From Sphingobacteriales bacterium (GTDB lineage: Bacteria; Bacteroidota; Bacteroidia; Chitinophagales; Chitinophagaceae): a DNA stretch of 64,000 nucleotides. The stretch covers positions 1 through 64,000 of the forward strand of contig JAIXSZ010000015.1 in NCBI GenBank assembly GCA_027484425.1, given 5' to 3'. The position numbers were made by a program, and so were the translations under genes. Of the stretch, positions 4,899 through 21,150 are shown piece after piece; the stretch's first letter is position 1; each line of letters starts with the position of its first letter. The notes under the pieces were generated by a model, which did no database searches, was not told the origin of the DNA, and worked only from the letters and a program-made list of their open reading frames with translations.

Positions 4899-4909
4899 AC
4901 GTGGGAACG

Positions 4910-7178: not shown

Positions 7179-7652
7179 CGAAATGTGTGCACCTAAAAGT
7201 AAACCAACAAGTATTACTGATAACCGAATTTAAATACAATGAGTAGCGATAAAAGTGTATGCGTAGTGAGCAAAAGATGTATTTCATGGAAAAAGCTCCT
7301 CATTGCCCTGAACGTAGAAGGGTGTGACACAAGCGGCGATGAAGGGAGTGCTGGGGCTGGTGACAAAGGAAGTAGAAAATATGATGTGAAAAGGGGTAGA
7401 AATAGGGGTGAAATAAGACTAATATGAGCGAATGAGAGTGAGAATAAATGTAATATATGTGAACTGTGGCGAGAAGGGGCTATATGACATGTGTAAGGTG
7501 CTGATAATGAGGGTATTGTGGGCAAAATAAAATCTATGATATACTCGTAGCTGTATATGATAGTGCGGAAAGTGTAGTATGACAGATGTGTGATTTGTGA
7601 GGGTGAGAAAGTGGAGGCACCTTTGTGTGACAAAACAACGAAAAACCCTGAC
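7179..7652. other. Leader region before the phage cluster, no supported gene
   Basis: Between the terminator and the protease gene I see no convincing gene. A 62-codon open frame at 7239-7427 starts with ATG but has low-complexity Gly/Ser/Lys composition and no family signal. Base use here (G-rich top strand) already resembles that of the protease gene, so this may be the remains of a missing upstream head gene. In a normal phage of this type the portal and head-morphogenesis genes would precede the protease here. Confidence 0.35.
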
Positions 7653-8645
7653 ATGATGGAAAAACTAAAAAAGACAGATAGGGAGTATGTGCTATCGGAC
7701 AGTAGTGTGAATGAGTATGGCTTCAGGTTGCTGACAAGTGGGTACCAAATAGAGGAGTACAGAAAAAACCCGATAGGCTACTACATGCACCGGAGGGATG
7801 AGGGTATAGTGGTGCGGTGGGATGACCTATGTGTGAATGGTGATGTGATAACGGGTAAACCGGTGATAAACCTGATGAATGGCAGGGGTGAGCAGACGTG
7901 GAGTGAGGTGGAAAATGGTTTTCTGAATGCTGCGAGTGTGGGGCATATAGTGGTGCTGGAATATAGCATGGACAGGGAGCTGATGTTGCCAGGGCAAACG
8001 GGACCGACGATAACGAAGTGGTATAACAAGGAATGCAGTCTGGTGGACATACCGGGTAACTGCAATGCGCTGACTAAACTGTATGACGCACAAGAGAATG
8101 AGCTGAACCTGATGGATATGAACATAGGCAGTCATAAAATGAAGGGGCTACCTGTGGCTATGCCGGCTGAGCTGTATGCGGTGCTGAATGTGGCGGCATC
8201 GGCTAGTGATGGTGAGGTGCTGGCGGCGGTGAAAACCCTGAGCCTAGAGTGCCAAAAACTGAGTGCTGAAAATGCTGCGCTGAGTGCTGAAATGGTGGTG
8301 CTGCAACAACAGGCATCTGCCATAAGTGCTGCCCGAAAAAGCCTGGAAATAGAGGGACTGCTGAATAGAGCCCTAGAGGAAAAAAGAATAACTACGGAGC
8401 TGAAAGGAAAACTGGCGGTGGACTATGCAAACAACCCCGAGGGACTGAAGGTGCTGCTGATGGCAATGCCAGCCTACAGAGCAATAGCGGAACAATTGCG
8501 AGGAAAGAGTGCTGACAAAACAGAGGGCGAATGGGTGTGGGATGACTATGAAAAAAATGACCCTACGGGCAACAAACTAAAGGACCTGAGAAGTGATGAC
8601 CCGGTGCGCTACAAGGCACTGTTTGAGAAAAAATTTGCGGCATAA
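7653..8645 (+). CDS. Phage prohead protease with C-terminal scaffold region
   Basis: About 330 aa from ATG 7653 (an in-frame GTG at 7590 would add 21 residues). The N-terminal half has the pattern of HK97/U35-type prohead proteases: a His in YYMHRRDE, a Ser in NAASVGHI and an acidic residue in ECSLVDIPGN, the likely catalytic triad. The C-terminal half is an Ala/Leu/Glu coiled coil ending in an aromatic tail (DDPVRYKALF) typical of scaffold domains fused to Mu-type protease genes. It would cleave itself and the capsid scaffold during shell maturation. It is the first clear gene of the cluster; no portal or terminase precedes it. Codon use is strongly CTG/GTG/ATA biased. Confidence 0.78.
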   Translation: MMEKLKKTDREYVLSDSSVNEYGFRLLTSGYQIEEYRKNPIGYYMHRRDEGIVVRWDDLCVNGDVITGKPVINLMNGRGEQTWSEVENGFLNAASVGHIVVLEYSMDRELMLPGQTGPTITKWYNKECSLVDIPGNCNALTKLYDAQENELNLMDMNIGSHKMKGLPVAMPAELYAVLNVAASASDGEVLAAVKTLSLECQKLSAENAALSAEMVVLQQQASAISAARKSLEIEGLLNRALEEKRITTELKGKLAVDYANNPEGLKVLLMAMPAYRAIAEQLRGKSADKTEGEWVWDDYEKNDPTGNKLKDLRSDDPVRYKALFEKKFAA

Positions 8646-8763
8646 ATAAGGTGTCTACAAAGAGACCGCAAAGGGATAAAAAATAAGGCTACATAAGGAT
8701 GGATAATGAATGCTGCTAAGGGCTGATGGCGGTAGCTATGCGTGTTTGGAAATTCCATATGTC

Positions 8764-8889
8764 ATAGTACATAGTCGATAGTACTTAGTCGATAGTCAAT
8801 AGTTGATAGTCAATAGTTGATAGTCGATAGTCAATAGTCGATAGTACATAGTCGATAGTCAATAGTACATAGTCGATAGTTGATAGTCC
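8764..8889 (+). repeat. Heptanucleotide tandem repeat, 18 units of ATAGTNN
   Basis: Eighteen consecutive 7-bp units (one starts TTAGT instead of ATAGT), where NN is AC, CG, CA, TG or CC. The period is exactly 7 over the 126 bp. It lies in the gap between the protease and capsid genes of the phage cluster. Such heptamer arrays are known as genome-wide intergenic repeats in several bacterial groups and are not a phage structure. There are no spacers, so it is not CRISPR. Confidence 0.9.
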
Positions 8890-9000
8890 AAAGTCTACGA
8901 ACCAAAGTCCAAAATCCAAAATTCAAATTCAAAGGTGCCGAATAGCAGATACCAAATTCAAAATTCCAAATACAAATACCAAAAACTATAACTAAAACAA
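8890..9000 (+). repeat. Second heptamer-like repeat tract (AAATTCC/AAAGTCC type)
   Basis: Directly after the ATAGTNN array the sequence changes to imperfect 7-bp units such as AAAGTCC, AAAATCC, AAAATTC and CAAATTC, interrupted at about 8933-8952. The same kind of tract recurs at 13411-13456 in the same operon. It ends 18 bp before the capsid start, so it forms part of the capsid leader. Confidence 0.7.
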
Positions 9001-9018
9001 AAAAACCAATAAACAACT

Positions 9019-9936
9019 ATGGGAATTCAGAGAGAGATATGGCAGGACCATATAGCGGGCAACTTGTTTAAGAACAATGAGTTTTTACTGGCGTCGGTGG
9101 ATGCGAGCCAGCATGTGATGCAAGGGAAGGTGGTGCATATACCTCAGGCGGGTGCGCCGCCGACGGTGGTGAAAAACAGAACATCGCTACCGGCAACAAT
9201 AGTGCAAAGGACAGATAGTGATGTGACGTACACACTGGATAATTTTTCGACAGACCCGATACTGATACCGAATGCGGAGCTGTATGAACTGAGCTACAGC
9301 AAACGTGAGAGTGTGCTGAGTGAACATGAAATATCGGTGAGGGAAGCGATAGCAAATAGTGTGCTGGAGCTATGGGCACCAAGCGGTATGACGGGTACGG
9401 TGATAAGAACTACTGGCGCGGCTACGGCGGCACATATGGAGGCTGCGACGGGGAACAGGAAAAAATTTGTGGTGAATGACCTGAAACAGGCACAACTGAG
9501 AATGAACAAACAGAATGTGCCGATGGAGGGAAGATATGCGCTGATAAGTGCGGATATGTTTCAGCAGTTGACGGATGATATGTCGGCGACACAGTATAGG
9601 GACTTTAGTGCTGCGTATGATGTGAAAGATGGTGTGTTGGGAAGGCTGTTTGGGTTTAACATACTGATGAGGAGCGCTGTGCTGAAGTATGATGATGATG
9701 TGCTGCCTGTAATGATACCTGGTGGTGCTGACCCAGATGTGAGCGACAACGATGGTGTGCTGTGCTGGCAAATGAGTGCTGTGGAAAGAGCTGTGGGACA
9801 GATCAGCTTCTTTGAGAATATGGGTGACCCGACGTACTACGGCGATGTGTATAGTGTGAGCATAAGAATGGGTGGCAGGAAAAGGCGCGCAGATGCGAAG
9901 GGCATAGTGGCGATAGTGCAGGCTGCAGCGGCATAG
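9019..9936 (+). CDS. Phage major capsid protein
   Basis: 305 aa. It resembles major capsid proteins of contractile-tailed Bacteroidota prophages. The N-terminal part IWQDHIAGNLFKNNEF and the region with VVHIPQAG and a helical spine (SEHEISVREAIANSVLELW) fit an HK97-fold coat, and the C-terminal end has the ENMGDPTYYGDVYSVSIRMGGR block typical of coat P-domains. It would build the icosahedral shell with the upstream protease-scaffold. Adjacent genes are lysis functions rather than head completion or connector proteins, so the head module looks incomplete. CTG/GTG-rich codon use. Confidence 0.8.
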   Translation: MGIQREIWQDHIAGNLFKNNEFLLASVDASQHVMQGKVVHIPQAGAPPTVVKNRTSLPATIVQRTDSDVTYTLDNFSTDPILIPNAELYELSYSKRESVLSEHEISVREAIANSVLELWAPSGMTGTVIRTTGAATAAHMEAATGNRKKFVVNDLKQAQLRMNKQNVPMEGRYALISADMFQQLTDDMSATQYRDFSAAYDVKDGVLGRLFGFNILMRSAVLKYDDDVLPVMIPGGADPDVSDNDGVLCWQMSAVERAVGQISFFENMGDPTYYGDVYSVSIRMGGRKRRADAKGIVAIVQAAAA

Positions 9937-10021
9937 TGGTGAGGGTGACAGGTGTGGGCGTAGTGTGGATGAACAGTGGTGCAGGATATGCCCATACCTG
10001 TTTGTAAAAAAAACGACCGAC

Positions 10022-10294
10022 ATGATGGAGACTGAAATAAAAGTGTGGGTGCTGGTGGGTGTGGCTGGTGCAATGATGACGGTGCTGGGATTTGTGGTGA
10101 AGCTGGTGACAGACCAAGTGATAAAAAGACTGGACGACATAGTGCTGGAACTGAAACAAATGACCAGAGCAACGACGATACACGGACAGGAAATAAAAGG
10201 TCTGCAAGAGCAAGAGGCTATGATACACCGCCGGCTGAATGAACACGCTGACAGAATACATGCCCTGGAAAGGAGCATAATAAGTGAACTATAA
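10022..10294 (+). CDS. Small membrane protein with coiled coil, holin/spanin-like
   Basis: 90 aa from ATG 10022 (ATG 10025 is equally possible; an upstream in-frame ATG at 9965 would add 19 residues). One hydrophobic span at about residues 7-27 is followed by a long charged coiled coil with regular heptads to the C-terminus. Size, topology and position two genes before the endolysin suggest a lysis protein (holin- or spanin-like, or similar to XhlA membrane partners with reversed topology). Not assigned to a family. Confidence 0.6.
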   Translation: MMETEIKVWVLVGVAGAMMTVLGFVVKLVTDQVIKRLDDIVLELKQMTRATTIHGQEIKGLQEQEAMIHRRLNEHADRIHALERSIISEL

Positions 10295-10310
10295 AAAAAA
10301 TGGATAAAAG

Positions 10311-10760
10311 ATGTTTTGTACTAAAATGAGAAGCAAGCTAAAAAGACTGCTGCAACAGATAGACCAGTATGTGGACGAACATGCGGAAACAGCACTGAGG
10401 ATAACGACAACACTGAAGGGTATGCTGGAAAGCCCGGTGGCGGATATAGTGACGGCGATAATACCTGGTGATGCCGATGAGCTTATAAGAAAACACCTGA
10501 TAGCGGCTCTGGAACTGGCTACCAATGCGCTGAGCATAGCCAATGACTGTGGGGCACAACAAACGCTGAATGAGAAGCTGCAATGCTTTGTGACGCAACT
10601 GCGGAAGTACCCACCTGAGGTGCAAGATGCACTGCTGCAAAAACTGGCTAGCCTGCTGACCAGACAACTGGACGGTAGCAGGGGGAGACAAAGTCTGTAT
10701 GACCTGTATACACAGGCGAAATATGCTGCTGGAAAACAACAGGAAGTGGCGGGTGTGTAG
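10311..10760 (+). CDS. All-helical protein of unknown function in the lysis region
   Basis: 149 aa (a second Met is at residue 6). Predominantly helical, with an amphipathic start (KLKRLLQQIDQYVDEHAE) and a moderately hydrophobic mid segment (PVADIVTAIIPG). Similar small proteins occur between membrane protein and endolysin genes in Bacteroidota prophages, but I know of no function. It begins 16 bp after the membrane protein stop and probably belongs to the lysis cassette. It might be a second holin component or an endolysin regulator. Confidence 0.55.
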   Translation: MFCTKMRSKLKRLLQQIDQYVDEHAETALRITTTLKGMLESPVADIVTAIIPGDADELIRKHLIAALELATNALSIANDCGAQQTLNEKLQCFVTQLRKYPPEVQDALLQKLASLLTRQLDGSRGRQSLYDLYTQAKYAAGKQQEVAGV

Positions 10761-10898
10761 ACAAAAGATGAACCATAAAATGTGGGTAGCGTGCAAATGG
10801 ACTGTGTGAAAGAACTACCCACCAGATATGGTGCAAGAGACACTATACAGAAACCGTGAAGTGAAGAAAGATACTGTAACCTATAAACCTAAGTGATC
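10761..10898. other. Gap with an 8-bp inverted repeat before the endolysin
   Basis: GTGGGTAG at 10782-10789 is matched by CTACCCAC at 10815-10822, a stem with a 25-nt loop. There is no T tract, so it is not a clear terminator. It might shape the mRNA upstream of the endolysin. Very short open frames of 13 and 20 codons in the gap are not supported as genes. Confidence 0.4.
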
Positions 10899-11438
10899 AT
10901 GAACACAAACAACGACAAGCCTGGTGAGCTGCACCTAGCTGCACTAGAAGTAGCTAAAGAGCAGGTGGGTGTGCAAGAAGTGCCGAAGGGTAGTAATAAA
11001 GGACCGATGATAAATGAGTATCTGAAAGCAGTGGGATTGGGGCCGGGTTATGCGTGGTGTCAGGCGTTTGTTTATTGGTGTTATGCTGTGGCAGCAAAAA
11101 GGATAGGTGTGGAAAATGTACTGGTGAAAACTGCTGGCGTATATGACTGCTGGAACCGAAGCACCAAAAGAAATGGTGTGGTGAAAATAGCTAAAAGTGA
11201 GGTGGTGGTAGGCAAAGCTGTGCTGCAACCGGGCGACCAGTTTATAATGATGTATGGGAAGGGAGCAGGGCACACTGGTATAATAGAGCATGTGACTGAA
11301 AACGAAACTGGGACAATAGTGCTGCACACCATAGAAGGTAATAGCAACAATAGTGGAAGTAGAGAGGGGTATGCTGTGGTGAGGCAAACGAGAATGCTGA
11401 GTGAAAAGGCATTGCAGGGATTCTTGAGGTATAGCTAA
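10899..11438 (+). CDS. CHAP/NlpC-type phage endolysin
   Basis: 179 aa from ATG 10899. It has the features of the cysteine peptidoglycan hydrolase group seen in phage lysis genes: catalytic Cys in YAWCQAFVYWC (about residue 54), catalytic His in GHTGIIEHV (about 127), and the EGNSN block near the C-terminus that supplies the polar third residue. It would cut peptide or amide bonds in peptidoglycan to release particles. There is no signal peptide, so it needs a holin-type partner, probably encoded just upstream. It starts the block that continues into the tail genes. Confidence 0.82.
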   Translation: MNTNNDKPGELHLAALEVAKEQVGVQEVPKGSNKGPMINEYLKAVGLGPGYAWCQAFVYWCYAVAAKRIGVENVLVKTAGVYDCWNRSTKRNGVVKIAKSEVVVGKAVLQPGDQFIMMYGKGAGHTGIIEHVTENETGTIVLHTIEGNSNNSGSREGYAVVRQTRMLSEKALQGFLRYS

Positions 11439-11441
11439 GCA

Positions 11442-11693
11442 ATGATGAACGAATTAAAGACACGACGACCTACTATGAAAACAAGTGATGAGCAAGTAAG
11501 CAATGTGCTGTATGTGACGAGCGATGACAGAGTGCATGTGGATGAAACAACGGCTGCAACACATGCAGAAGGACTAAAAGACCAAACTATAAGGACCCTA
11601 AACGAGCAGGAGAATGACCTGATGGTGAATAGACTGATAATGACAGAGGATGAAGAAACAGACGAAGGATATGTGAGTGAAGAGGGATGGTAG
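11442..11693 (+). CDS. Small acidic protein between endolysin and sheath
   Basis: 83 aa, 3 bp after the endolysin stop, so almost certainly co-translated. Very rich in Asp, Glu and Thr, especially at the C-terminus (EDEETDEGYVSEEGW). It has no hydrophobic span and no recognised domain. Position suggests a lysis regulator, a head-tail accessory or an inhibitor binding a basic partner; none of these is shown. Confidence 0.55.
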   Translation: MMNELKTRRPTMKTSDEQVSNVLYVTSDDRVHVDETTAATHAEGLKDQTIRTLNEQENDLMVNRLIMTEDEETDEGYVSEEGW

Positions 11694-11738
11694 GGCAGGT
11701 GAGAAAACAATTGTGAAACAAACTAAAACAAACTAAAA

Positions 11739-12917
11739 ATGGGAAGTGTAAACATAGTGCTGGCCAATGGGCAACTGGGCGGCACCATACAGACAAACGA
11801 CGGCATAGTGGGTATGGTGCTGACCGGTAAAACAGAACCAGGATATGATGTGGGAACACCAATACTGGTGACAAGTATGACAGCAGTGGCTGACGCTGGA
11901 ATAACTAAGGTGGAGAATGGATTTGCGTACAAAAACCTGGTAGAGTTTTACAATCAGGCAGGGAGCGGGGCTCAACTGTATCTGATGCTGGTGCCGAACA
12001 CCATGACTGTGGCTGAGATGGCTGACAATACCAACGCAAGTGGTGTGAAAAAACTACTGGACTATGCAGGAGGCAAAATAAAAGTAGTGGGGTTGATGAG
12101 CGATGATTTGGCGATAGCTGCTGCCGGAGGCGTGATAACAGTAGCAAACGGGCTGAATGAAGATGTGTATACGGCAGCCAACAATATGGCTGTAACAGCA
12201 GAACAATACTTCTACAACCACAAGCCCCTGCGTGCAATAATAGGCGGAACATCATACACTGGTGTGGCGGCAGACCTACAAGATATGAGAGCCGGAACGA
12301 CGAACAACCGAACAGCAATATTGATAGGCGACACAAAGGGAGGTGCCGGAGCATGCTTGGGTATGGCAATGGGTGTGGTGGCATCTGTGCCTGTGCAGCG
12401 GAAAATCAGCAGGGTGCGAAGTGGTGCGCTGAAAAACAATGCCGCTTATCTGGGTACGGGTGCTTATGAAAGCCTAGCAGGAACATCGACGGTGATAGCT
12501 GCGCTGGGTTATATAACCTTTACGACATATGCTAATACAAGTGGTTACTTCTTTTCGGGAGACCCTATGTGCGCCGCAACAGCAGACGACTATAGTATGC
12601 TGGCAAGAGGTAGGGTGATAGACAAGGCACACATATTGGCCTATACAACCTTTGTGCAAGTGGTAGATGATGAAGTGCCGGTAAACACAGATGGTACACT
12701 GGATGCGGGTTTTTGCAAGTGGCTAAGCCAACAAATAGTGAACCAAATAAACAATACTATGACTGCCAATAAAGAGATCAGTAACATAAGTTGCTACATA
12801 GACCCAGCACAAAATATACTGAGTACAAACCTGCTGAATGTAGTGCTGAGTATAACTCCTGTAGGGTATGCAACGGACATTGTAGTGAGTTTGGGATTTA
12901 GTAATCCGGCGCTGTAA
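11739..12917 (+). CDS. Contractile tail sheath protein (DUF2586-like)
   Basis: 392 aa, matching in start and composition the sheath proteins of contractile-tailed Bacteroidota phages. It begins with GSVNIVLANGQLGG and the block GIVGMVLTGKTEPG, has a central GTSYTGVAADLQ region, and ends with a conserved beta-rich domain containing a CYIDPAQNILST segment, as sheath C-termini do. In such particles about six copies per ring surround the tube and contract to drive it through the target envelope. It is followed by the tube, then the chaperone and tape measure, the usual Myoviridae-type order. Confidence 0.82.
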   Translation: MGSVNIVLANGQLGGTIQTNDGIVGMVLTGKTEPGYDVGTPILVTSMTAVADAGITKVENGFAYKNLVEFYNQAGSGAQLYLMLVPNTMTVAEMADNTNASGVKKLLDYAGGKIKVVGLMSDDLAIAAAGGVITVANGLNEDVYTAANNMAVTAEQYFYNHKPLRAIIGGTSYTGVAADLQDMRAGTTNNRTAILIGDTKGGAGACLGMAMGVVASVPVQRKISRVRSGALKNNAAYLGTGAYESLAGTSTVIAALGYITFTTYANTSGYFFSGDPMCAATADDYSMLARGRVIDKAHILAYTTFVQVVDDEVPVNTDGTLDAGFCKWLSQQIVNQINNTMTANKEISNISCYIDPAQNILSTNLLNVVLSITPVGYATDIVVSLGFSNPAL

Positions 12918-12970
12918 ATGAGTGTGTAAAACCAAAGAAATAGAAGCGAATTTTTAAAACAAACTAGGAT

Positions 12971-13402
12971 ATGGCAACGATACCATTTTTTGATAGTAAG
13001 GACTGCGAGTGGGCAGACATGACGGTGATGATAGCAGGTGCTACCATAACGAAAATAAGGGGCGTGAAATATAAAGCGCACAAAGACAAACAACTACTGC
13101 ACGCCGCCGGGGATGAACCCATAAGCATACAAGCTGGTAACAGAACCTATGAGGGACAGATTAAAGTGCTGAAAGGCGCACTGGATGATATGAACAGAGC
13201 TGCCCTAGCGGCTGGAGGAGACGATGTGCTGGACCTGCAATTTGATGTGGTGGTAACCTACAAAGCAAAGGGCACCAGAGCGCTGCAAACAGACACACTA
13301 ATTGGAGTGGAAATAAAAGAGTTTGAGAAAGGGTGGGAGCAAGGGGCAAAAAGTATGGATGTGACACTGCCTATAGTGTTTATGAAACTGATAACCGAAT
13401 AG
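12971..13402 (+). CDS. Tail tube protein
   Basis: 143 aa, right after the sheath, with the size and beta-rich pattern of contractile-phage tube proteins. It has an early DMTVMIAGATITKIRGVKY strand pair, the GDEPISIQAGNRTYEGQIKV block and a C-terminal region ending in MDVTLPIVFMKL. Stacked hexamers would form the inner tube. A heptamer-like repeat tract separates it from the chaperone gene. CTG-biased codon use is still strong here. Confidence 0.78.
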   Translation: MATIPFFDSKDCEWADMTVMIAGATITKIRGVKYKAHKDKQLLHAAGDEPISIQAGNRTYEGQIKVLKGALDDMNRAALAAGGDDVLDLQFDVVVTYKAKGTRALQTDTLIGVEIKEFEKGWEQGAKSMDVTLPIVFMKLITE

Positions 13403-13410
13403 GGGAAAGG

Positions 13411-13456
13411 AGGAAATCCAAATTCCCAAAAAAACAAATTCCAAATTCCCAAAAAC
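13411..13456 (+). repeat. AAATTCC-type simple repeat between tube and chaperone genes
   Basis: Imperfect 7-8 bp units (AAATTCCC, AAATTCC) fill the gap between the tube and chaperone genes. They are the same class as the tract at 8890-9000. Confidence 0.65.
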
Positions 13457-13475
13457 TTAGACTTAAAATAAAAAA

Positions 13476-13799
13476 ATGACAACTGAAACAACAGAACTGA
13501 AAGGACAAGTTAGTGGTGCACAAATAGAGGAGTGGAAGCAGAAACACCAGTATGGCATATATGCTGTAGAGGTAGGTGGACATGTAGCTTACTTTAAGAA
13601 CCCAGGTAGGCATGAGCTGAACTGCGCACTGACAAAGGCAGACAAAGAAAGAGCACTGGCGGTATTTGAGGAGCTGGCAAATGTAACCTACATAGGAGGT
13701 AGTGAAGAAGTGCTGAAAGATGATCAAATGTTTATAGGTATATGTCAGGAACTAAAGGTGAAACTTGACGGGAAAAAAGCTCGTCTGGTAAACTTATAG
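13476..13799 (+). CDS. Tail assembly chaperone (gpE/gpG-like), zero-frame product
   Basis: 107 aa. It lies between tube and tape measure, where contractile and long-tailed phages encode their tail assembly chaperone. It has the typical small alpha/beta core with GIYAVEVGGHVAYFKNP followed by a helical end. Near its 3' end, GGG AAA AAA GCT at 13770-13781 lies inside a window (13769-13799) where the -1 frame is also open, and that frame continues for 63 codons past the slip (see next feature). Such pairs (lambda G/GT, P2 E/E') normally make a minor frameshifted product that recruits the tape measure. Confidence 0.75.
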   Translation: MTTETTELKGQVSGAQIEEWKQKHQYGIYAVEVGGHVAYFKNPGRHELNCALTKADKERALAVFEELANVTYIGGSEEVLKDDQMFIGICQELKVKLDGKKARLVNL

Positions 13800-13969
13800 C
13801 GGAGTTGTGCGGTGGCCCGGCACACGACTCCGTAGGGTACCTGGAAACACTTATAGAATATTACTTGCCGGGGGTAAATCATAGAGCGTTGAGTGATGAA
13901 GCATTCGCGCAGAAAATAGCTCATCTGGAATATATAAGAGCAACTGAGTTGAGAAAAGTAAAAAGATGA
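13778..13969 (+). CDS. Tail assembly chaperone, -1 frameshift extension
   Basis: Read in the -1 frame from the A6 run (13773-13778), 63 codons run without a stop to TGA 13967-13969. The product has normal protein composition with a helical C-terminus (AFAQKIAHLEYIRATE). It has no ATG; only a TTG at 13805 could serve as an independent start. It fills the otherwise empty 216-bp gap before the tape measure and sits where the T part of G/GT chaperones is expected. The slip site is not a textbook X-XXY-YYZ heptamer: the zero frame reads AAA AAA and would re-pair as GAA AAA. Confirmation needs protein data. Confidence 0.6.
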   Translation, partial: SSSGKLIAELCGGPAHDSVGYLETLIEYYLPGVNHRALSDEAFAQKIAHLEYIRATELRKVKR

Positions 13970-14015
13970 TGGAAAAAACAGATACCTAAATCCTATCGTC
14001 AACCTAACGTAAACG

Positions 14016-15332
14016 ATGAACTATAAGATAGAAAAAGAACCCATGAATGGAATAATGGAAGGTGCAGATAATGCAATGATGTTACAAGGTGTGTATGAGA
14101 GAAACAATACACCGATATGGATGGATGGCACGTTGGCACAAATAATAAAAGCGATAGGAGATTGGGTATCTGTAATGAGTGCAGGAGTGCAAAAGCTGAG
14201 TTCGTATAACAATTTTGGAGGGGAAGAAACAAGAGCTGGCGCTGAAGCTCCAGATAATATAAGGGCAAGTAAACGAAATACAACTGGTATAACAGCGTAT
14301 ACACTTATGCATACAGCTAACGACAAGTATAAACCCAAGATAATAGCGTTGGATAGTAATGAAAAGGATCCAGTTATTACTAATGAATTAGCGTTGACAA
14401 AAAGTGACGTTGTAGTTAATTCGGGAAATGTGGGAAAAAGTGTAGGCGAAGATGAATGGTCTGTTCTAGGAACAAACAGTGCATTATCAATAAGTGAATC
14501 TAGTGCTGCAAAAGGCACATCATCGGTGTTGCCTGGATGGTTAGCGCCAGAATCAGCAGGATTTGCGGCAAGTTTAAAAGAATATTCTGAAGAGCTGAAT
14601 AGGCTACAAATAGGATCTGCATCTGGTGTAGAAAATCAAAGAGATCGATACGACAAAGCATATTATATGCGTGAACATTATACAGAAGTGCTTTCAAATA
14701 GTTTGTCAGAGTTGAATGAACGGGCAAGTGTATTTGATCCAATCGTGATACCTGATAGACGTATTAGTATTAATCCTCGAGATACTATCAATCAGACATA
14801 CCTAGGGCAAGCATACTACAAGGGTTTAGACCCAAATTTATCAGTAATAGAAAATGGGCTGATTGGACCACAAAATGGGACAAAAACGTCAGAATATGGT
14901 TTGCTTTTGTCTGGAGGATCTTTGTTGCGCCAGACACCTATAGATAGTGCTCTGATAGTAGGTGGGCAAACAAATGGAAATGTTGGCATAGTTGAAACAG
15001 ATTACCATTTCGATGCCACTAAAAAGTATGACCATTTGCAAGAGACACGGATCGCATCAATGCTCCTGTTAAATGAGCAGACCAAATTTGGCGAGGTCTA
15101 CGAAACGAATACTGAGAATGACAAAAACAAGTGTGAGACTCTGTATATACTGAGCGAAAGGCCAACAAACAAATCTGTGCCTGACACAGGTAAAAAAGCA
15201 ATAACCATACATCTAAACAGACCAATGATAGAGCAGTTTACTGTGCATGTGGGGAGTAGTAGGGATGGATTAGGTGAGCTAAAAAGAGCAGTAGAAGAAA
15301 TACTGCTAGAAATATTAAATAGTGCAAACTAA
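14016..15332 (+). CDS. Tape measure protein, unusually short
   Basis: 438 aa. The position after the chaperone and the C-terminal block LNRPMIEQFTVHV plus a final helix ending EEILLEILNSAN match the ends of tape measure proteins of Bacteroidota contractile phages. Most family members are much longer and carry hydrophobic segments for membrane passage; here I see no strong membrane span and mostly Ser/Asn-rich middle sequence. Tail length scales with this protein, so the tail should be short. Codon use turns host-like (TTA/TTG common) from this gene on. It may be trimmed by internal deletion. Confidence 0.65.
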   Translation: MNYKIEKEPMNGIMEGADNAMMLQGVYERNNTPIWMDGTLAQIIKAIGDWVSVMSAGVQKLSSYNNFGGEETRAGAEAPDNIRASKRNTTGITAYTLMHTANDKYKPKIIALDSNEKDPVITNELALTKSDVVVNSGNVGKSVGEDEWSVLGTNSALSISESSAAKGTSSVLPGWLAPESAGFAASLKEYSEELNRLQIGSASGVENQRDRYDKAYYMREHYTEVLSNSLSELNERASVFDPIVIPDRRISINPRDTINQTYLGQAYYKGLDPNLSVIENGLIGPQNGTKTSEYGLLLSGGSLLRQTPIDSALIVGGQTNGNVGIVETDYHFDATKKYDHLQETRIASMLLLNEQTKFGEVYETNTENDKNKCETLYILSERPTNKSVPDTGKKAITIHLNRPMIEQFTVHVGSSRDGLGELKRAVEEILLEILNSAN

Positions 15333-15340
15333 AACTAACT

Positions 15341-15967
15341 ATGGCTGAAATATCACTAAGTCTTGCAACCCTTTTTGAGCGCACGTTTGGCTACAAGACA
15401 TTGGCTTTTGAACCAAAATTTGAAAAGGTTAGAGGGGGTAATGAAAGGAAAGAACAGGGAGTTGGGGGGTCAGCGTATTATGCTACAGATCCAAGTGGTG
15501 TAGAGTATTATATGCCTGTGACACTGATATATCCGGAAAGTAGTGGCAGTGACGCCTCTGCAAACAACAGTGGACGGCTAAAGCGATGGAATTTGCCTTT
15601 TCCGGTGATATCTGTAGAATGCAAGAAAACAATAATTGAAACAGCATTAGCTGGTCGGAATGGGACCGTTAAAGAGCTGATAGGAGGTCAAGATTATGTG
15701 ATAACTATCAAGGGGTTTCTTGTAGGTGTAAACAATGAATTTCCGGAGGAAGACCTGTCGACTTTAAGGTCGATTTATGAGCAAAATATTGCGCTGTCAA
15801 TAGAGTGTCCTTTGACTGATGTTTTTCTCCTTCGTCCCAATAGGGGAGGCAGTGATAAGGTAGTGATAAGTGAACTGAAACTACCTATGGTAAGTGGCGT
15901 AAAAAACATAAGAGCCTATGAAATAAAGCTACTAAGTGATGAAGCTTTTAACCTAATAATAATTTAA
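15341..15967 (+). CDS. DUF6046-type tail/baseplate protein
   Basis: 208 aa. It looks like the DUF6046 proteins found after the tape measure in Bacteroidota contractile phages. A Tyr-rich N-terminal region (EYYMPVTLIYP) is followed by a beta-rich body with the block GQDYVITIKGFLVG and a C-terminal KLPMVSGVKNIRAYEIKLLSDE. It probably contributes to the tail-initiation or baseplate-hub complex. It starts 8 bp after the tape measure stop. Confidence 0.65.
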   Translation: MAEISLSLATLFERTFGYKTLAFEPKFEKVRGGNERKEQGVGGSAYYATDPSGVEYYMPVTLIYPESSGSDASANNSGRLKRWNLPFPVISVECKKTIIETALAGRNGTVKELIGGQDYVITIKGFLVGVNNEFPEEDLSTLRSIYEQNIALSIECPLTDVFLLRPNRGGSDKVVISELKLPMVSGVKNIRAYEIKLLSDEAFNLIII

Positions 15968-15968
15968 A

Positions 15969-16997
15969 ATGTTTGTATTGAGTAGTGATATTTCTATAGG
16001 TGATTTGAGATTTGAGGGGGTGCATACTGTGATAATAAAAAGAAGTGTACACAACCTGATAGAGACTGCTGTTGTTGAAGTGCCTGCCATAGCTTGTTTT
16101 AAAGGTAGAGGCAAGAGTGCCCCAGAAAAGATCGTAACTGCAACACAGATTGTGACTGGTAGCCCAATACACATAAAACTGGGATATAATGGTGAGCTGA
16201 GAACAGAGTTTGAAGGGTATGTGGTGAGCTGCAAAATGGGAACTCACCTACAAATTAACTGTGAAGGAGCGAGCTATCTGTTGCGGCAAAATGCACCAGG
16301 TTTACAACCGGGGAAAAGCACAGTAAAAGAACTTCTGCAAGGAGCGGTATCAAAAATCCCAGGTAATCGGCCTATTAAAGTTTCTTGTGCGCTTGACATG
16401 GATGTGATTAATAATTGTAGTGTTGGTGCTAGTGGTTTGGAGTTAATACATCAAATGGCACGCGCGACCAATTATAATTTATGTTGCTTCTTTATAAAGC
16501 CATTTGAATTATGGTGTGGTTTGCTATATAGCAGTTATACCTCGGGTATTTCTATTAGCAATGATGATGTTATGGGGTTTAGAATAGGCTACAATACGTT
16601 GGAGCATAATTCGCTAGAGGAGCATGCTAAAAATGTGAAATCAGGAATTGTGGAGTATAAAAGGAAAAGAAGCACTGGCGATGTTTTGGTAGGTGTCTCT
16701 GTAGACAGGTGGGGTGGCGGAAGTATTGAAAAGACAATACTGAATCAAATAGTGCAGGAAAAAAGTTTGGCTGAATTGGCAGACGAGAAAGCAATAAGGA
16801 ATAACTACAACGGGTTTGACGGCGCATTTACTGCCTTTCTTCAACCCTATGCTAACCCTGGTGGAAGCGCAATAATAGTGAACAGTAATATGCCCAATAT
16901 GGATGGTGAATACTTGATAGAAAGTACAGAAGTAACCTTTGGGATAAATGGAGCGAGAAGAAAAATAGAATTGGGACCGGGTTTTAATAGCCTTTAA
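15969..16997 (+). CDS. Baseplate hub protein (gp27/gpD-like)
   Basis: 342 aa, 1 bp after the previous stop. It has the layout of hub proteins: beta-barrel N-terminal part with SPIHIKLGYNGELRTEFEG, a helical middle (GLELIHQMARATNY, like the region where hub proteins load the spike), and a C-terminal domain with GGSAIIVNSNMPNMDGEY. In P2- and Mu-type phages the hub trimer seats the spike. The spike gene follows directly. Confidence 0.7.
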   Translation: MFVLSSDISIGDLRFEGVHTVIIKRSVHNLIETAVVEVPAIACFKGRGKSAPEKIVTATQIVTGSPIHIKLGYNGELRTEFEGYVVSCKMGTHLQINCEGASYLLRQNAPGLQPGKSTVKELLQGAVSKIPGNRPIKVSCALDMDVINNCSVGASGLELIHQMARATNYNLCCFFIKPFELWCGLLYSSYTSGISISNDDVMGFRIGYNTLEHNSLEEHAKNVKSGIVEYKRKRSTGDVLVGVSVDRWGGGSIEKTILNQIVQEKSLAELADEKAIRNNYNGFDGAFTAFLQPYANPGGSAIIVNSNMPNMDGEYLIESTEVTFGINGARRKIELGPGFNSL

Positions 16998-17010
16998 AAA
17001 GCGAATCACT

Positions 17011-17559
17011 ATGACTAAAAATGCGGCAAAGATATCGGAAGGAATCAGAGCATTGACAAAACGACCTTATGAAATAATGAGCGGTAGTGTAGTAGCGGGC
17101 AGTGTAGATGAAGTTAATCAAACAATATCTGTGATACCCGATGGGCTAGACGGGAAAATAGAAGGCGTAATGCTGGGAGCTGTAAGTGCTGCAACTGATT
17201 GCATGGTTATGCTGCCTAAAGAGGGTAGTCATGTAGTGATAGGTAGCGTAGATGGGCCGGGAAACTGGATACTACTGCAGCCAAGTGAAGTAACTAAAGT
17301 GTTGGTAAGCATAGGAAACACATCGTGTACAATAAGCGAGAGTGGAGTACAAATAGAAAGCGGAAGTACTGTTTTTAAAGTGGAGAGCTTAATAAAAATA
17401 GCAACGGCAAGTGAAAGTATGTATGGGATACTGAATGACCTGATAACTGCCATAACGCTAATTACTGTGCCAACCTCTACCGGCCCAAGTGGACTGCCTG
17501 TCAACGCTGCCTCTTTCAATACTATAGCAACTAGGTTAAGCAATTTGCTTAATGCATAA
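17011..17559 (+). CDS. Tail spike / puncturing protein (gp5/gpV-like)
   Basis: 182 aa. The N-terminal part has the OB-fold pattern of spike proteins (about residues 25-85, with a GSHVVIGSVDGPGNWILL strand pair). It is followed by a short repetitive beta stretch (SCTISESGVQIESGS) of beta-helix type and a helical C-terminus rather than a PAAR-type tip. It would form the trimeric needle that breaches the envelope. No PAAR protein is seen nearby. The helical C-terminal end instead of a pointed tip is a little unusual. Confidence 0.65.
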   Translation: MTKNAAKISEGIRALTKRPYEIMSGSVVAGSVDEVNQTISVIPDGLDGKIEGVMLGAVSAATDCMVMLPKEGSHVVIGSVDGPGNWILLQPSEVTKVLVSIGNTSCTISESGVQIESGSTVFKVESLIKIATASESMYGILNDLITAITLITVPTSTGPSGLPVNAASFNTIATRLSNLLNA

Positions 17560-17571
17560 ATCCTAAATAAA

Positions 17572-17868
17572 ATGGCGAAACAAATGATAGATATTGGTTT
17601 AGGTGAAGACGAAGACCTAAAAATAACTGCTGGAGACTTCAGCCCCGAAGAGAGTACTGCACAACATCAACAACAGCTCCTCTTAAATGGGAAAGGTGAT
17701 TTTAAAGAGAATCCCACACTATGTGTAAATGCTTTTAGCTATCTGGATGATGAGAACTTTCAAGGGCTGATACGCGCGGTGAATATTGAGTATAACAGAG
17801 ATGGCATGGAGATAAAAAAGGTAACGTTATTGCCTGATGGAACTATTAGTAGTGATGCCACTTATTGA
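17572..17868 (+). CDS. gp25/gpW-like baseplate protein
   Basis: 98 aa, just after the spike. Size and position fit gp25/W, the wedge protein that joins the sheath to the baseplate. It opens with a short acidic segment and then a helical stretch (STAQHQQQLLLNGKG, like the alternating residues of gp25-family proteins) and ends in a small beta segment. I would not claim lysozyme activity. Similar small proteins in Bacteroidota phages are assigned only by position, so this rests partly on synteny. Confidence 0.55.
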   Translation: MAKQMIDIGLGEDEDLKITAGDFSPEESTAQHQQQLLLNGKGDFKENPTLCVNAFSYLDDENFQGLIRAVNIEYNRDGMEIKKVTLLPDGTISSDATY

Positions 17869-17908
17869 TATTGTAGGATTGTAAACAACAGTTAGAATAA
17901 ATAGGAAA

Positions 17909-18853
17909 ATGCTTAAAAAGGTAAAAGCAACCCCCAACCAAAGTTTACTAGACATGGTGGCTACAGAGTATGGAACTCTTGAAGCGACGATGGCAGTATG
18001 TGCAGCAAACGATATTAGCGTTAGCTACCTGCCTTCATCTGGTGAAGAAATAACTATGCCAGAATTGAGTAAACAAGAAGACATTGTATTGTATCTGCAA
18101 AGGAACAATATAGTAATTGGTACTGTGGCCGCGCATACTCTCGATTATGTGATAGTGCTAAAACCAGCAATGAGAAAAGTTCCGAACGTAAGCGGCGATC
18201 CTCATGCTTTAGGATACTACTCATTTGACTATATGGGTTTGCCTGAGTTTGTACATGTATATCCATTGACGGATACTTATCTATCTGAAAATAGGCTGTA
18301 TTACTCGGCCGAAGAGCGGCACTTGACTGGTCTTGGAGCAGAGTCTGCACCACCAAGTGGAGTAGTTTCGATGACCGGTTTGTCGATACCGTATGTTTTA
18401 CCATGGACAGTAGGTTTTGGATACATGCTGGTGTGGAGTGATCTGACCGTGCCAGTGGTTACATGCTCTTTTAAAGATATTGAAGGCAACACAGCATATG
18501 CTGCACCGCTTACTCTGTTTGACAACACTACAAATACTGTGATTGAGCGTTTTATAGGAGATGTAGTTGTTGAAAAAATAGGGGCAACCATTGAACATGT
18601 AATACTTAGATTGACCAGAGTACATGCTGAGATAGCCACTGTGAATATGCGCGACTACAGTATGGTATGGGTGGCGGCAGCAGCGGATGGAACACCAGAT
18701 CCTGAAGATCCGCTAAATGATGATGTAAGAATTGTAACACTGACAAGTGGCGTGCATACTATAGGCATTGAAACAACTTATTATTTTCCTGGAACAACAC
18801 CGCCCTATCCATACCCCTCATCGGGTAGAACTATGGTCATTAAAGTGCATTAA
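17909..18853 (+). CDS. gpX-like LysM-start baseplate protein with long C-terminal domain
   Basis: 314 aa. Residues 1-55 have the pattern of a LysM-type module (TPNQSLLDMVATEYG then PSSGEEITMP) as in gpX-like tail proteins, which are about 70-100 aa in P2. The remaining ~250 residues form an added beta-rich domain (YSFDYMGLPEFVHVYPLTD and similar) with no catalytic motif I know. It ends 25 bp before the baseplate J-like start. The extra domain may bind the host surface or substitute for another baseplate protein. Confidence 0.55.
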   Translation: MLKKVKATPNQSLLDMVATEYGTLEATMAVCAANDISVSYLPSSGEEITMPELSKQEDIVLYLQRNNIVIGTVAAHTLDYVIVLKPAMRKVPNVSGDPHALGYYSFDYMGLPEFVHVYPLTDTYLSENRLYYSAEERHLTGLGAESAPPSGVVSMTGLSIPYVLPWTVGFGYMLVWSDLTVPVVTCSFKDIEGNTAYAAPLTLFDNTTNTVIERFIGDVVVEKIGATIEHVILRLTRVHAEIATVNMRDYSMVWVAAAADGTPDPEDPLNDDVRIVTLTSGVHTIGIETTYYFPGTTPPYPYPSSGRTMVIKVH

Positions 18854-18878
18854 AAACAATTTTAGAAATACCCCTACT

Positions 18879-19709
18879 ATGGCAAGAAGTATAAATCAGA
18901 TACAACAACAGATAATTGATGTAAAACAAACAGACCCCACATTAAGTGGGTATACCTGGAGTGACAGTAAAGTGGCTATATGGCGCCTGTGGACGTATAT
19001 AGTGGCTGTATGCATATGGACATTAGAAAATCTATTTGACTACCACAAAAGTGAAATTGAGCGAATAATTGCTACACAAAAACCACATACACTGCAGTGG
19101 TATGTATATAAAGCAAAACTGTTTCAGTTGGGAGAAACGTTGCCGGACGGTAGTGATAGTTACACAGAAGCGTCGACAGACCCTGTAGTAACAATTATTA
19201 AACACGCTGCCGCAGTAGAGTTGTCGAACCTGGTAAGAATCAAGGTAGCAAAGGATAATGCAGGGGCGCTGGAAGCCTTAACAACGAGCGAGCTGGCTGC
19301 TTTTAGTGGCTATATGAACCGAATAAAAGATGCAGGAGTAAGGCTACAACTAACAAGTAGTAATCCGGATTTGTTACAGCTGATTTTATCCGTCTATTAC
19401 GATCCATTAGTGTTGACAAGTGCTGGTACAAGAATAGATGGAACGTCAAGCACACCCGTACTAAATGCGATCAATGAGTTTCTGGCAAATTTGCCATTTA
19501 ATGGTGTTTTTGTGCTTAATAATTTAATAGGGGCACTACAAGCTATAGATGGTGTGGAGATAGGTAGTATTGTAAGCGCACAAGCAAATTATGCCGCCAC
19601 ACCGTTTGTACCTATAACAGTAAGATATACGCCAGATGCGGGTTATATGGTACTAGATGAAACCTACTTCAATGCCAATATAGTTTATACTCCATACAGT
19701 GCTGCGTAG
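18879..19709 (+). CDS. Baseplate J-like protein
   Basis: 276 aa from ATG 18879 (the frame is open further upstream but overlaps the previous gene). The N-terminal region has an aromatic, hydrophobic segment (about 25-45, RLWTYIVAVCIWTLENLF) followed by a mixed alpha/beta body with NRIKDAGVRLQ and FVPITVRYTPDAG blocks. This is the pattern of the baseplate J-like proteins of Bacteroidota phages that form the wedge. It is followed by the gpI-position protein, as in P2 (J-I-H). Confidence 0.65.
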   Translation: MARSINQIQQQIIDVKQTDPTLSGYTWSDSKVAIWRLWTYIVAVCIWTLENLFDYHKSEIERIIATQKPHTLQWYVYKAKLFQLGETLPDGSDSYTEASTDPVVTIIKHAAAVELSNLVRIKVAKDNAGALEALTTSELAAFSGYMNRIKDAGVRLQLTSSNPDLLQLILSVYYDPLVLTSAGTRIDGTSSTPVLNAINEFLANLPFNGVFVLNNLIGALQAIDGVEIGSIVSAQANYAATPFVPITVRYTPDAGYMVLDETYFNANIVYTPYSAA

Positions 19710-19759
19710 TATTCGGTTTACAATATCCCTCTTTCACAAAAGCAATTCAATTTACAATT

Positions 19760-20263
19760 ATGGGTTTGTTTGATGTTAATTATGATTCACTAAGCTATCA
19801 GTTGTTACCTGTGCGATTGAGAAAGCTTAAGAATGTAGCATGGATACGATGTATAATAGCGCCTATAAAATGGTTGTACAATTTATTTGGTACGAGCAGG
19901 GAAGATCATTTGTATTTCCTAGCACATAATAGTCAGGTTGTGTATTTGACTGCTGCACTCAATGACCTCTTTGACCCTGTGGGGCGTGGAATATACATTG
20001 AAGATGGACAATATGAGGATCCATTATTTGTATACCTAACACCAGAAATAAGACCATTGTGGCTAGGACTTAGCTCAGAGGTGGGTTCAGCAATCTATCC
20101 TGTACCACAGGTTTTGTATACCGATTCAGAGACCTCCTTGCTAGGAAATGCATTTGTAGTAAAGGTGCCAGTAACATTAGTTTTTGATATGCAAAGAATG
20201 ATGGCCCTTATCAACAAATACAGATTAGCGGGTAAAAACGTATATCAGATAGTAACCTACTGA
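19760..20263 (+). CDS. Tail protein in the gpI position
   Basis: 167 aa. A hydrophobic N-terminal segment (about 27-42) is followed by a Tyr-rich beta segment and a block containing YLTPEIRPLWLG. No family I can name with confidence. Position between the baseplate J-like protein and the tail-tip protein matches gpI in P2-type tails, so a wedge-to-fibre adaptor is the best guess. Confidence 0.5.
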   Translation: MGLFDVNYDSLSYQLLPVRLRKLKNVAWIRCIIAPIKWLYNLFGTSREDHLYFLAHNSQVVYLTAALNDLFDPVGRGIYIEDGQYEDPLFVYLTPEIRPLWLGLSSEVGSAIYPVPQVLYTDSETSLLGNAFVVKVPVTLVFDMQRMMALINKYRLAGKNVYQIVTY

Positions 20264-20310
20264 TAGGCAAAAGCCAAATCACAATCCAATAACGATAAAA
20301 ATTATATCCT

Positions 20311-21150
20311 ATGAAATCAATAGACTTTACACAACCTGGTGGATTTCCGCTTACACAAGATCAGTTAGGTTATTTGCAAGAAGCATATACAGAGAGTACC
20401 AAGGCGCTAGCAATGATAGGTGGAGACGGAACAGTGCCCTACAGAATAAGCGGTATTGCTGTGACAAACCCCTCTACTGGTGCATTTAACGCTACGGACG
20501 GTTGGTTGTATTACAATAATGAAATGATACGTTTTCGAGGTGCATCTGTGAGTGGCGGGAGTGGCGGTTTTGCCCCATTTGTGACTATAACTCCGTCTGC
20601 ATTAGCGCTGGTGTATAACGATGGTAGCACTCCTAATGTGGTTTTTGATAAGGAAGCTACTTTGCAGGTATTGCCCGTGGGAACAGCAACTGATGCAACT
20701 CGTTTTCCGTTGAATGACCTAAGACGATTTGGTGTGGGGTTTGGTGCAGCCAACAGGGAAAGTAGCTGGCAAACGCTAACAGTAAGCACTCTTGCTGCGG
20801 ATGGGGGTGTAAGTGGTACAATATTTTTTAAGAAAGACTTTACCGCCAATACTCTGCATCTAAGAGGTACACTATCTGCAGCAAATGCACAAAACTTCTC
20901 AGCTATGCCAAGTAGCGGATTTTACCTGATGGGTACATTACCGGTAGGATATCACCCGGCCAACAATGCCTATTTTACTGCACAGTATTTTGTGGCTTCC
21001 TCTGTGCTTGATGATGCTGGGGTATCATGGATAAAACAGGTGAATTGTGGATTAAACTTAGCCGGTCAACTTATTGTTAATTGGATAAAGCCAGTGTCTT
21101 CTGTAACAGGTTACGGAGTAAACTTTAGTGCCATAATAGGACTTGACTAA
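20311..21150 (+). CDS. Tail tip or fibre protein
   Basis: 279 aa, last gene of the cluster. The N-terminal half has the pattern FTQPGGFPLTQDQLGYLQEAY, common in tail-fibre and receptor-binding proteins of Bacteroidota phages. The rest is beta-rich and Gly/Ser/Ala-rich with no chaperone-like end. No fibre assembly gene follows. It would be the host-range determinant of the particle. It stops 8 bp before the convergent mreD stop with no terminator between. Confidence 0.65.
   Translation: MKSIDFTQPGGFPLTQDQLGYLQEAYTESTKALAMIGGDGTVPYRISGIAVTNPSTGAFNATDGWLYYNNEMIRFRGASVSGGSGGFAPFVTITPSALALVYNDGSTPNVVFDKEATLQVLPVGTATDATRFPLNDLRRFGVGFGAANRESSWQTLTVSTLAADGGVSGTIFFKKDFTANTLHLRGTLSAANAQNFSAMPSSGFYLMGTLPVGYHPANNAYFTAQYFVASSVLDDAGVSWIKQVNCGLNLAGQLIVNWIKPVSSVTGYGVNFSAIIGLD

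Follow-up and report, generated by a model that had tools for sequence, protein, structure and literature searches.

Introduction

Gene transfer agents (GTAs) are known from few lineages: a 2023 table names only the Barto-, Brachy- and Rhodogtaviriformidae (PMC9953437), and a 2026 report counts the Faecalibacterium element among the very few of GTA type found outside Alphaproteobacteria (PMC12946183). According to the same report, this element, FpGTA, is podovirus-like and encoded in a single 10.5-kb operon, and its packaged DNA has been sequenced (PMC12946183). For RcGTA of Rhodobacter capsulatus, a 38-nm head, a 49-nm tail, a content of about 4 kb and a distribution of the genes over five loci are reported (PMC9662315). 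Vertical inheritance characterises RcGTA and the other GTAs of Alphaproteobacteria (Rhodogtaviriformidae, Bartogtaviriformidae), whose hosts retain head, tail, terminase and portal but no phage replication genes.

A contractile tail is kept by the host in tailocins such as R-type pyocins, which are not known to possess a head or a terminase. PBSX of Bacillus subtilis and PBSX-like elements are defective phage particles that combine such a tail with a terminase. PBSX is reported to package evenly dispersed chromosomal fragments of 13.4 kb (PMC12946183), while for B. pumilus a PBSX-like particle with both packaging of host DNA and bacteriocin activity is described (PMC8347963).

The locus considered here lies in a stretch of 64,000 nucleotides ("the window") from contig JAIXSZ010000015.1 of a Sphingobacteriales bacterium of the Chitinophagaceae, whose genome is assembled in 95 contigs with an estimated contamination of 3.96%. 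A preliminary description had seen in it a phage-derived contractile particle with capsid and protease and without visible packaging motor, and had left the choice between a decayed prophage, a split element with its packaging genes elsewhere and a domesticated particle with an empty shell.

Results

The particle genes of the window (7653-21150) are arranged on a single strand (plus) in the order given below and every one of them is an open frame. The gene list, strand and order of the preliminary description hold, with profile support for protease, capsid, lysin, sheath, tube, DUF6046 protein and hub. The row starts with a Mu I-like prohead protease/scaffold (7653..8645; Pfam Mu-like_Pro, E 9.8e-6; phrog_11321, 1e-54; phrog_328 "head maturation protease", 3.3e-6), preceded by two overlapping operator-like dyads of the TATGATA...TATGATA/TATGACA type (7535..7584, no strand). 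The major capsid protein of 305 aa (9019..9936; phrog_267 "major head protein", 3.2e-34; Phage_capsid_2, 9.3e-7) is 303-305 aa long across 18 further copies measured, and comparison of a capsid alignment profile with the PDB matched the solved capsid 9jwb_A (1.9e-10). It is followed by a short conserved protein that has a single hydrophobic segment (9965..10294; phrog_1009, 6.4e-4, no assigned function; synteny) and may be a lysis protein, by a conserved protein without function name (10311..10760; synteny), a CHAP-domain endolysin (10893..11438; Pfam CHAP, 1.5e-9; phrog_9589 endolysin, 1.4e-10) and a small protein without function name (11442..11693; weak synteny).

The tail genes begin with a contractile sheath of the DUF2586 type (11739..12917; Pfam DUF2586, 7.1e-47; phrog_907 "tail sheath", 8.2e-35) and the tube (12971..13402; phrog_4579 "tail protein", 2.0e-10), whose top match, phrog_9206 (1.2e-23), is instead labelled major head protein. 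The tail assembly chaperone (13476..13799; phrog_19076, 1.7e-15, no assigned function; synteny) and a protein of 438 aa in tape-measure position (14016..15332), rapidly evolving with a conserved C-terminus, precede a DUF6046 tail/baseplate protein (15341..15967; Pfam, 2.3e-26; phrog_5233 "baseplate hub", 2.7e-13) and the baseplate hub (15969..16997; phrog_4930, 6.1e-41). Spike (17011..17559), gp25/W-like wedge (17572..17868), a gpX-like baseplate-associated protein (17909..18853), a J-like protein (18879..19709; phrog_38413, 2.1e-64, no assigned function), an I-like protein (19760..20263) and the tail tip protein (20311..21150) complete the set; the last gene is placed tail-to-tail with mreD (21159-21704, minus strand). 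For the J-like protein the alignment favours the ATG at 18879 over the TTG at 18768. Tape measure, chaperone, spike, gp25/W, gpX-like, J, I and tip owe their names to position and synteny, as Pfam and PHROGs gave nothing informative for them and profiles of gp25, spike and J had no significant match in the PDB. AlphaFold models were unusable (mean pLDDT of 30.9 for the capsid and 53.3 for the protein in gp25 position).

A tblastn search of the window with homologues from elsewhere revealed no terminase, portal, connector, transposase, MuF or neck gene, which confirms the reported absence of portal and terminase from this stretch. Likewise, the 7.6 kb upstream of the protease hold, as had been stated, genes unrelated to the particle (Fic-like, RtcB, PrfH and others). 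The packaging motor, in contrast, is not missing from the genome. The whole-genome search which had been proposed located an intact packaging module on contig C23 (73126-78580, minus strand) composed of terS (78580-78083; phrog_4151 "DNA binding protein", 1.4e-14), terL (78031-76478; phrog_38, 6.8e-61), a gp36 connector (75708-75271; gp36 profile, 1.2e-6), a Mu-type portal (74751-73663; Portal_Mu, 8.5e-65) and a probable tail terminator (73626-73126). A profile built from relatives matches TerL at 76481-78031 (E 8.5e-267, no stop), which identifies the empty result of an earlier search of this genome with PF03354 (TerL_ATPase) as a false negative. Around the module no further phage genes were found. 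Two small genes within it, "secr" (75829-76395; dN/dS 0.173) and "memb" (74831-75238), were at first counted as particle genes and then dropped, since both persist in a relative (G283) whose phage genes are gone and hence may belong to the host. A minimum of about 44 kb separates the two loci (7.6 kb to one contig end plus 36.3 kb to the other).

Each half has an operator-like dyad in front, that of terS being the perfect dyad TATGATA-N15-TATCATA (C23, 78590-78618). Within genomes the dyads of the two loci match with a mean of 15.9, compared to 9.8 between genomes, a value reached in 0 of 5000 permutations, which leave the kinship among genomes in place. The own partner locus is the best dyad match in 8 of 17 rows, the window's own row not being among them. 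One more exact half-site of the operator, the third, falls within a histidine-kinase-like gene (window position 34508) and is ascribed to chance. In part of the family an exact DnaA-box-like motif is present before terS, which may link packaging or its expression to replication. TerS itself contains an HTH-like segment which, though variable, can be aligned in most copies.

The gene set of the main cluster recurs in the same order in 20 loci of other genomes, several of them cut by contig ends, which excludes chance. The packaging module is situated directly upstream of the protease in six relatives and adjoins it in divergent orientation in a seventh genome (G052). TerL is present in 19 of the 20 genomes with the main cluster, G018 giving no match. 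Across the genus, capsid was found in 28 and TerL in 31 of 35 genomes; all 28 capsid-bearing genomes have TerL, and in 12 of these 28 both halves share one contig (prophage-like pairs excluded). In all 21 genus genomes whose sequence extends that far and in which the last particle gene is complete, this gene adjoins mreD of mreDCB; the same neighbourhood is seen in three genomes from another genus. One relative, G001, contains both loci, the flanks of its packaging locus being collinear. Broken frames concern the capsid (G278/G005), the sheath (L019), protease and sheath (G084) and TerL (G025, G094), some of which may be assembly errors; copies are lost or broken in G084, G273, G283 and G278.

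Homologous TerS, TerL, gp36, portal, protease, capsid and tail genes occur in Mu-like transposable phages of Bacteroidota, namely in a prophage on G020:C67, which carries transposase, transposition protein and repressor, and on many IMG/VR contigs. In these phages the packaging arm and the protease-capsid arm point away from each other (of 80 virus loci fetched 39 were mapped, and 38 of these have terL in divergent orientation), a transposase is present in 8 of 9 virus records tested, and MuF and neck genes in both of two prophages examined. In the domesticated loci, by contrast, transposase, MuF and neck genes were not found, and the portal comprises 361-365 aa in the copies measured, compared to 379-434 aa in the phages. 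As PF09299 (Mu transposase C-terminal) proved insensitive (15/36) and missed the transposase of G020, a whole prophage transposase (P0007) was used as query; it found no counterpart in the genome of the window, although the same query missed a prophage-like copy in G111, so that a divergent transposase may be present. Repressor and transposition protein were not detected in the window by tblastn.

The 16 tested particle genes are under purifying selection. The comparison of relatives for synteny and selection, likewise proposed earlier, gives conserved synteny and a dN/dS of 0.015-0.135 in these genes between the window and G001, and a second pair (G013 and G015) 0.011-0.104 in 15 genes. Between the window and G001, dS amounts to 0.26-0.80 in 15 genes and to 1.32 in the hub (mreC/D: 0.31-0.40), an unevenness suggesting that some genes may have recombined. 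The domesticated copies group in a single clade, apart from four phage copies (SH-aLRT 98 and 91). Main half, packaging half and host have much history in common: the trees of the two halves share 9 of 14 splits, and 6 (main) and 7 (packaging) of 14 splits recur in the rpoB tree, the chance maximum being 4. Agreement of the loci with the host is looser than with each other, and the rpoB tree itself has weak support (open at 7 of 14 branches).

Discussion

We consider it most likely, with a probability of about 0.6, that the window harbours one half, head and tail, of a domesticated Mu-like phage particle encoded at two loci, and that this particle serves as a gene transfer agent. The best reading of the sequences is a vertically inherited GTA-like element which this free-living bacterium and its relatives have domesticated from an ancient transposable contractile-tailed phage. 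Capsid and tail genes are intact (with position as the sole basis for the names chaperone, spike, gp25, I and tip), terminase and portal reside on a separate contig of the same genome, and phage replication or integration genes of its own were not found in the genome (transposase), the window or the surroundings of the C23 module. Vertical inheritance and purifying selection are observed, with losses in some genomes. The earlier view that the set fits neither a tailocin nor a GTA fails once the C23 locus is counted, since the sum corresponds to the parts of a GTA. A tailocin is rejected, as capsid, protease, terminase and portal are present and head and terminase are under selection. Nor were transposase, transposition protein and repressor found with its late genes, as they would be in a Mu-like transposable prophage.

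As in RcGTA, the genes are spread over several, here two, loci. The element differs from alphaproteobacterial GTAs in its host phylum, its Mu-like portal and gp36 and its contractile sheath; its TerS has an HTH-like segment, whereas known GTAs are reported to have a small terminase without detectable DNA-binding domain (PMC11841831), a trait that does not strictly define a GTA. It shares with FpGTA an occurrence outside Alphaproteobacteria, and is distinguished from PBSX by its two loci, Mu-like ancestry and fixed site at mreDCB. In the proposed course of events, one regulator would turn on both halves in some cells, protease and capsid would assemble upon the portal, and TerS and TerL would load the head with DNA. 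This would be host DNA, given that no phage genome is left and that the distance between the halves would exceed the head capacity expected of a 36-kb phage. The lysin would set the particles free, and the contractile tail would pass pieces of the bacterium's own chromosome into related cells.

The main rival, which we hold to be unlikely, is a PBSX-like particle that packages random host DNA and acts as a contractile bacteriocin of narrow range, leaving its DNA undelivered. It would be built from similar components, namely head, terminase, contractile tail and lysin, and PBSX (PMC12946183) and the B. pumilus particle (PMC8347963) do package host DNA. Yet an unsystematic look recognised no immunity gene, and the tip protein shows fair conservation, at 52-67% identity across the 20-locus set minus L001, while a killer would be expected to have fast-changing receptor binding. 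We regard it as very improbable that the particle packages one specific DNA, such as a satellite or another mobile element, instead of random chromosome; the HTH-like segment kept by TerS would permit sequence-specific initiation, but inheritance at a single site through the genus would better fit a host function.

Equally improbable is the slow decay of an ordinary prophage, to which the lost or broken copies in four genomes and the missing replication and control genes would point. The window's lineage lends it no support, given the open frames and low dN/dS, the genus-wide presence at one site and the retention of both halves after their separation; decay is observed in other genomes. That the C23 genes stem from contamination or from some prophage without relation to the particle, the window encoding an empty shell, can hardly be believed at all. 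Although the loci are on different contigs of an assembly with some estimated contamination, homologous modules adjoin the main cluster in six relatives and G052, one-contig pairs exist in 12 capsid-bearing genomes, G001 has both loci with collinear packaging-side flanks, and the C23 module is not surrounded by other phage genes. Of the alternatives originally envisaged, the split element with packaging genes elsewhere is borne out by the intact module and by the adjacent halves in relatives, and the domesticated particle survives without its empty shell.

It is also rather probable, with slightly less assurance, that the element represents a new GTA family, to judge from the literature covered the first in Bacteroidota and the first from a Mu-like contractile-tailed transposable phage, which was domesticated beside mreDCB in an ancestor of several Chitinophagaceae genera and later split, its loci being coupled through a co-evolving phage-derived operator. 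No report of a GTA in Bacteroidota was found in the open-access journal literature covered. An independent domestication from such a phage would allow one to ask which changes make a phage into a GTA, candidates here being a shortened portal and the disappearance of transposase, MuF and neck genes, while capsid, motor and tail were retained. The matching operators at two separated loci offer a handle on the regulator. Fresh-water and soil Bacteroidota would thereby gain an inherited route of gene exchange.

Packaging genes at a second locus

The preliminary description had reported a set of phage particle genes at 7653-21150 of the window (contig C2, 1-64000) with no packaging genes beside it. 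Both observations hold in this 4.58-Mb genome of 95 contigs: the frames are open, on a single strand and in the order described, and no packaging gene was found in a search of the window. In six of 16 relatives (loci L007, L008, L012, L013, L015 and L017), a minus-strand large terminase gene (terL; phrog_38, E = 6.2e-67), preceded by a small-terminase-like gene, is located upstream of the protease. A TerL profile built from these six yields one match in the window's genome, a stop-free frame on contig C23 (76481-78031, E = 8.5e-267). The whole-genome search for terminase and portal which had been proposed as a check thereby located both on C23, as TerL is accompanied, all on the minus strand, by TerS (phrog_4151, 1.4e-14), a gp36 connector (PF07030, 1.2e-6), a Mu-type portal (PF06074, 8.5e-65) and a protein in tail-terminator position (phrog_6911, 2e-27, a phrog of unknown function). 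Host genes flank this module.

All five packaging genes occur in the same order in 14 of 20 stretches around TerL in relatives, one of which (L068) is a prophage. Three or four of them are present in L051, L053 and L055, the former two stopping at contig ends, while L056 (genome G016) holds terS and terL alone and L058 and L062 (G014) terL alone. G016 and G014 contain two or more TerL matches. TerL is present in 19 of 20 genomes with the main cluster, split across two contigs in G019; G018 gave no TerL match. Searches of 35 genomes of the genus found capsid in 28 and TerL in 31 (22 and 24, respectively, for the 25 good ones), and TerL accompanies capsid in all 28, which include G111 and G289, whose sole capsid is prophage-like. 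Leaving out prophage-like pairs, both halves share a contig in 12 of these 28, with a spacing of about 5 to 125 kb. Their separation is probably secondary because in G052 they adjoin divergently, as in related phages. In the family survey, 34 of 244 genomes contain TerL, prophages included.

Particle genes and their genomic site

Protease, capsid, lysin, sheath, tube, DUF6046 and hub are backed by profile matches; the remaining names follow from position and synteny only, and the gp25, spike and J profiles gave no significant match against the PDB. Short GATAGTC/ACATAGT-like repeats form an array between protease and capsid (8727-8900). The gene in tape-measure position (14016-15332) varies highly in length and sequence and has a conserved C-terminus, to which L013 (12132-16942) and L015 (12149-17238) show two or three tandem matches. 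Upstream of the element (3498-5530) adjoin two genes which we take, from their sequence, to be RtcB-like and PrfH-like.

A sheath scan of GTDB species genomes produced 20 loci, titled Flavipsychrobacter, Taibaiella, Chitinophagaceae, Bacteroidia or uncultured Bacteroidetes. The comparison with related genomes suggested in the preliminary description reveals a gene set and order common to all 20, as far as contigs extend, and mreD-mreC-mreB tail-to-tail behind the last particle gene in 21 of 21 genus genomes reaching this point with a full-length last gene (the window, 13 loci, G221, G174, G267, G268, G013, G015 and G284; for genomes known through loci, genus membership was taken from identical match coordinates across the capsid and TerL searches). 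Outside the genus, mreD adjacency is present in G217, G255 and G169 and absent in G226 and G077; G104 has no mreD within 2 kb of the element.

Decay is seen in other genomes. G273 (L304) keeps TerL and, at mreD, no more than a last-gene remnant; that site is devoid of particle genes in G111 and G283. G283 (L303) has lost capsid and TerL, with a clean deletion at mreDCB and the neighbouring genes alone kept. In G084 (L287) the protease and sheath frames are broken and unrelated genes replace the tail genes at the mreDCB site. Matches are spread over two frames for the G278 (= G005) capsid and the L019 sheath, and TerL of G025 and G094 contains stops; some broken frames may be assembly errors. 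Across the order, 17 of 396 genomes show a capsid match, mostly with phage-like scores, those of G390 and G351 being intermediate.

Phage origin

Scanning IMG/VR with the TerL profile identified 225 relatives; among the best 80, 39 loci longer than 17 kb were mapped, and in 38 of these terL is divergent from protease or capsid. G020, which also holds a domesticated (host-kept) copy, harbours on C67 (L149, L150) a seemingly complete Mu-like transposable prophage. Its genes include a repressor, a transposase (phrog_310, 6e-39), a transposition protein (phrog_296, 1.1e-26), a neck gene and a MuF-like gene. The transposase matches eight of nine virus records tested and the prophage carriers G020 and G174; the 20 further cellular genomes tested, including that of the window, gave no match. 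This query can miss divergent transposases, as it also failed to match G111, where the single copy is prophage-like. The MuF and neck genes have no match in the domesticated loci tested, and both match the G174 prophage. Portal length is 361-365 aa in all but one of 17 domesticated copies (the exception, in G008, runs into a contig end) versus 379-434 aa in four phage copies. In the trees, the domesticated copies separate as one clade from four phage copies (SH-aLRT 98 main, 91 packaging; quick method, with long phage branches).

Operator-like palindromes

Palindromes precede both protease and terS, the terS-side one of the window's genome being TATGATAGTACTAAAAACGTACTATCATA. Their letters vary among species, often alike at both loci of one species. 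Within genomes, the best ungapped match has a mean of 15.9, versus 9.8 between genomes (17 genomes; 0 of 5000 permutations, which do not remove relatedness among the 17). The same-genome partner ranks first in its row in eight of 17 genomes and not in the window's row (14, versus 26 with G006); G003, G020 and G221 are among those with little agreement. Since 12 of 21 related phages likewise have inverted repeats, with arms of at least 9, ahead of terS (chance 0.21), several of them reading TATGATACCC...GGGTATCATA, the operator is, judging by sequence, probably phage-derived. Exact TTATCCACA, which we take to be the DnaA-box consensus, lies about 58 bases before the terS start on C23 (L022). 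It precedes terS in 10 of 25 domesticated and 0 of 21 phage copies, mostly at constant distance and adjoining the dyad.

Selection and inheritance

The proposed dN/dS analysis of capsid and tail genes, extended to packaging genes, gave 0.015-0.135 between the window's genome and G001 (NG86; 16 genes, the set being without protease, which was unavailable in G001, and without lysin, the tape-measure gene and the genes starting at 9965, 10311, 11442 and 17909). dS amounts to 0.26-0.80 in 15 of the 16 and 1.32 in the hub, compared with 0.31-0.40 in mreC/mreD. G013 versus G015 yields dN/dS of 0.011-0.104 over 15 genes, including 'secr', a small gene inside the packaging module. For 17 genomes, main and packaging trees have nine of 14 splits in common, main and rpoB six, and packaging and rpoB seven, the rpoB tree being weak (7 of 14 branches open); label-shuffled trees have 0.2-0.3 on average and four at most. 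For these three comparisons, Mantel correlations of 0.855, 0.544 and 0.723 were each above every value from 9999 permutations.

Interpretation

Of the options considered in the preliminary description (split element, decayed prophage, empty shell), the split is borne out by TerL, TerS and portal on C23, and the dN/dS values argue against decay in the window's lineage. Passages of PMC9953437, PMC11841831 and PMC12946183 list GTAs from Alphaproteobacteria (Rhodobacterales, Bartonella, Caulobacter), Brachyspira, Desulfovibrio, Methanococcus and Faecalibacterium. No word begins with 'bacteroid' in the main texts of PMC9662315, PMC11841831 and PMC9953437. A search of freely accessible journal papers found no Bacteroidota GTA. 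TerS here retains an HTH-like segment, unlike known GTAs as reviewed in PMC11841831.

A gene transfer agent-like element is the reading that best accounts for this two-locus set: a capsid and protease, a portal and terminase, a contractile tail and a lysin, kept vertically in two loci that have related operators and no recognised transposase. PBSX-like killing by the particle is a less probable alternative. We infer that the particle would contain packaged DNA and deliver it.
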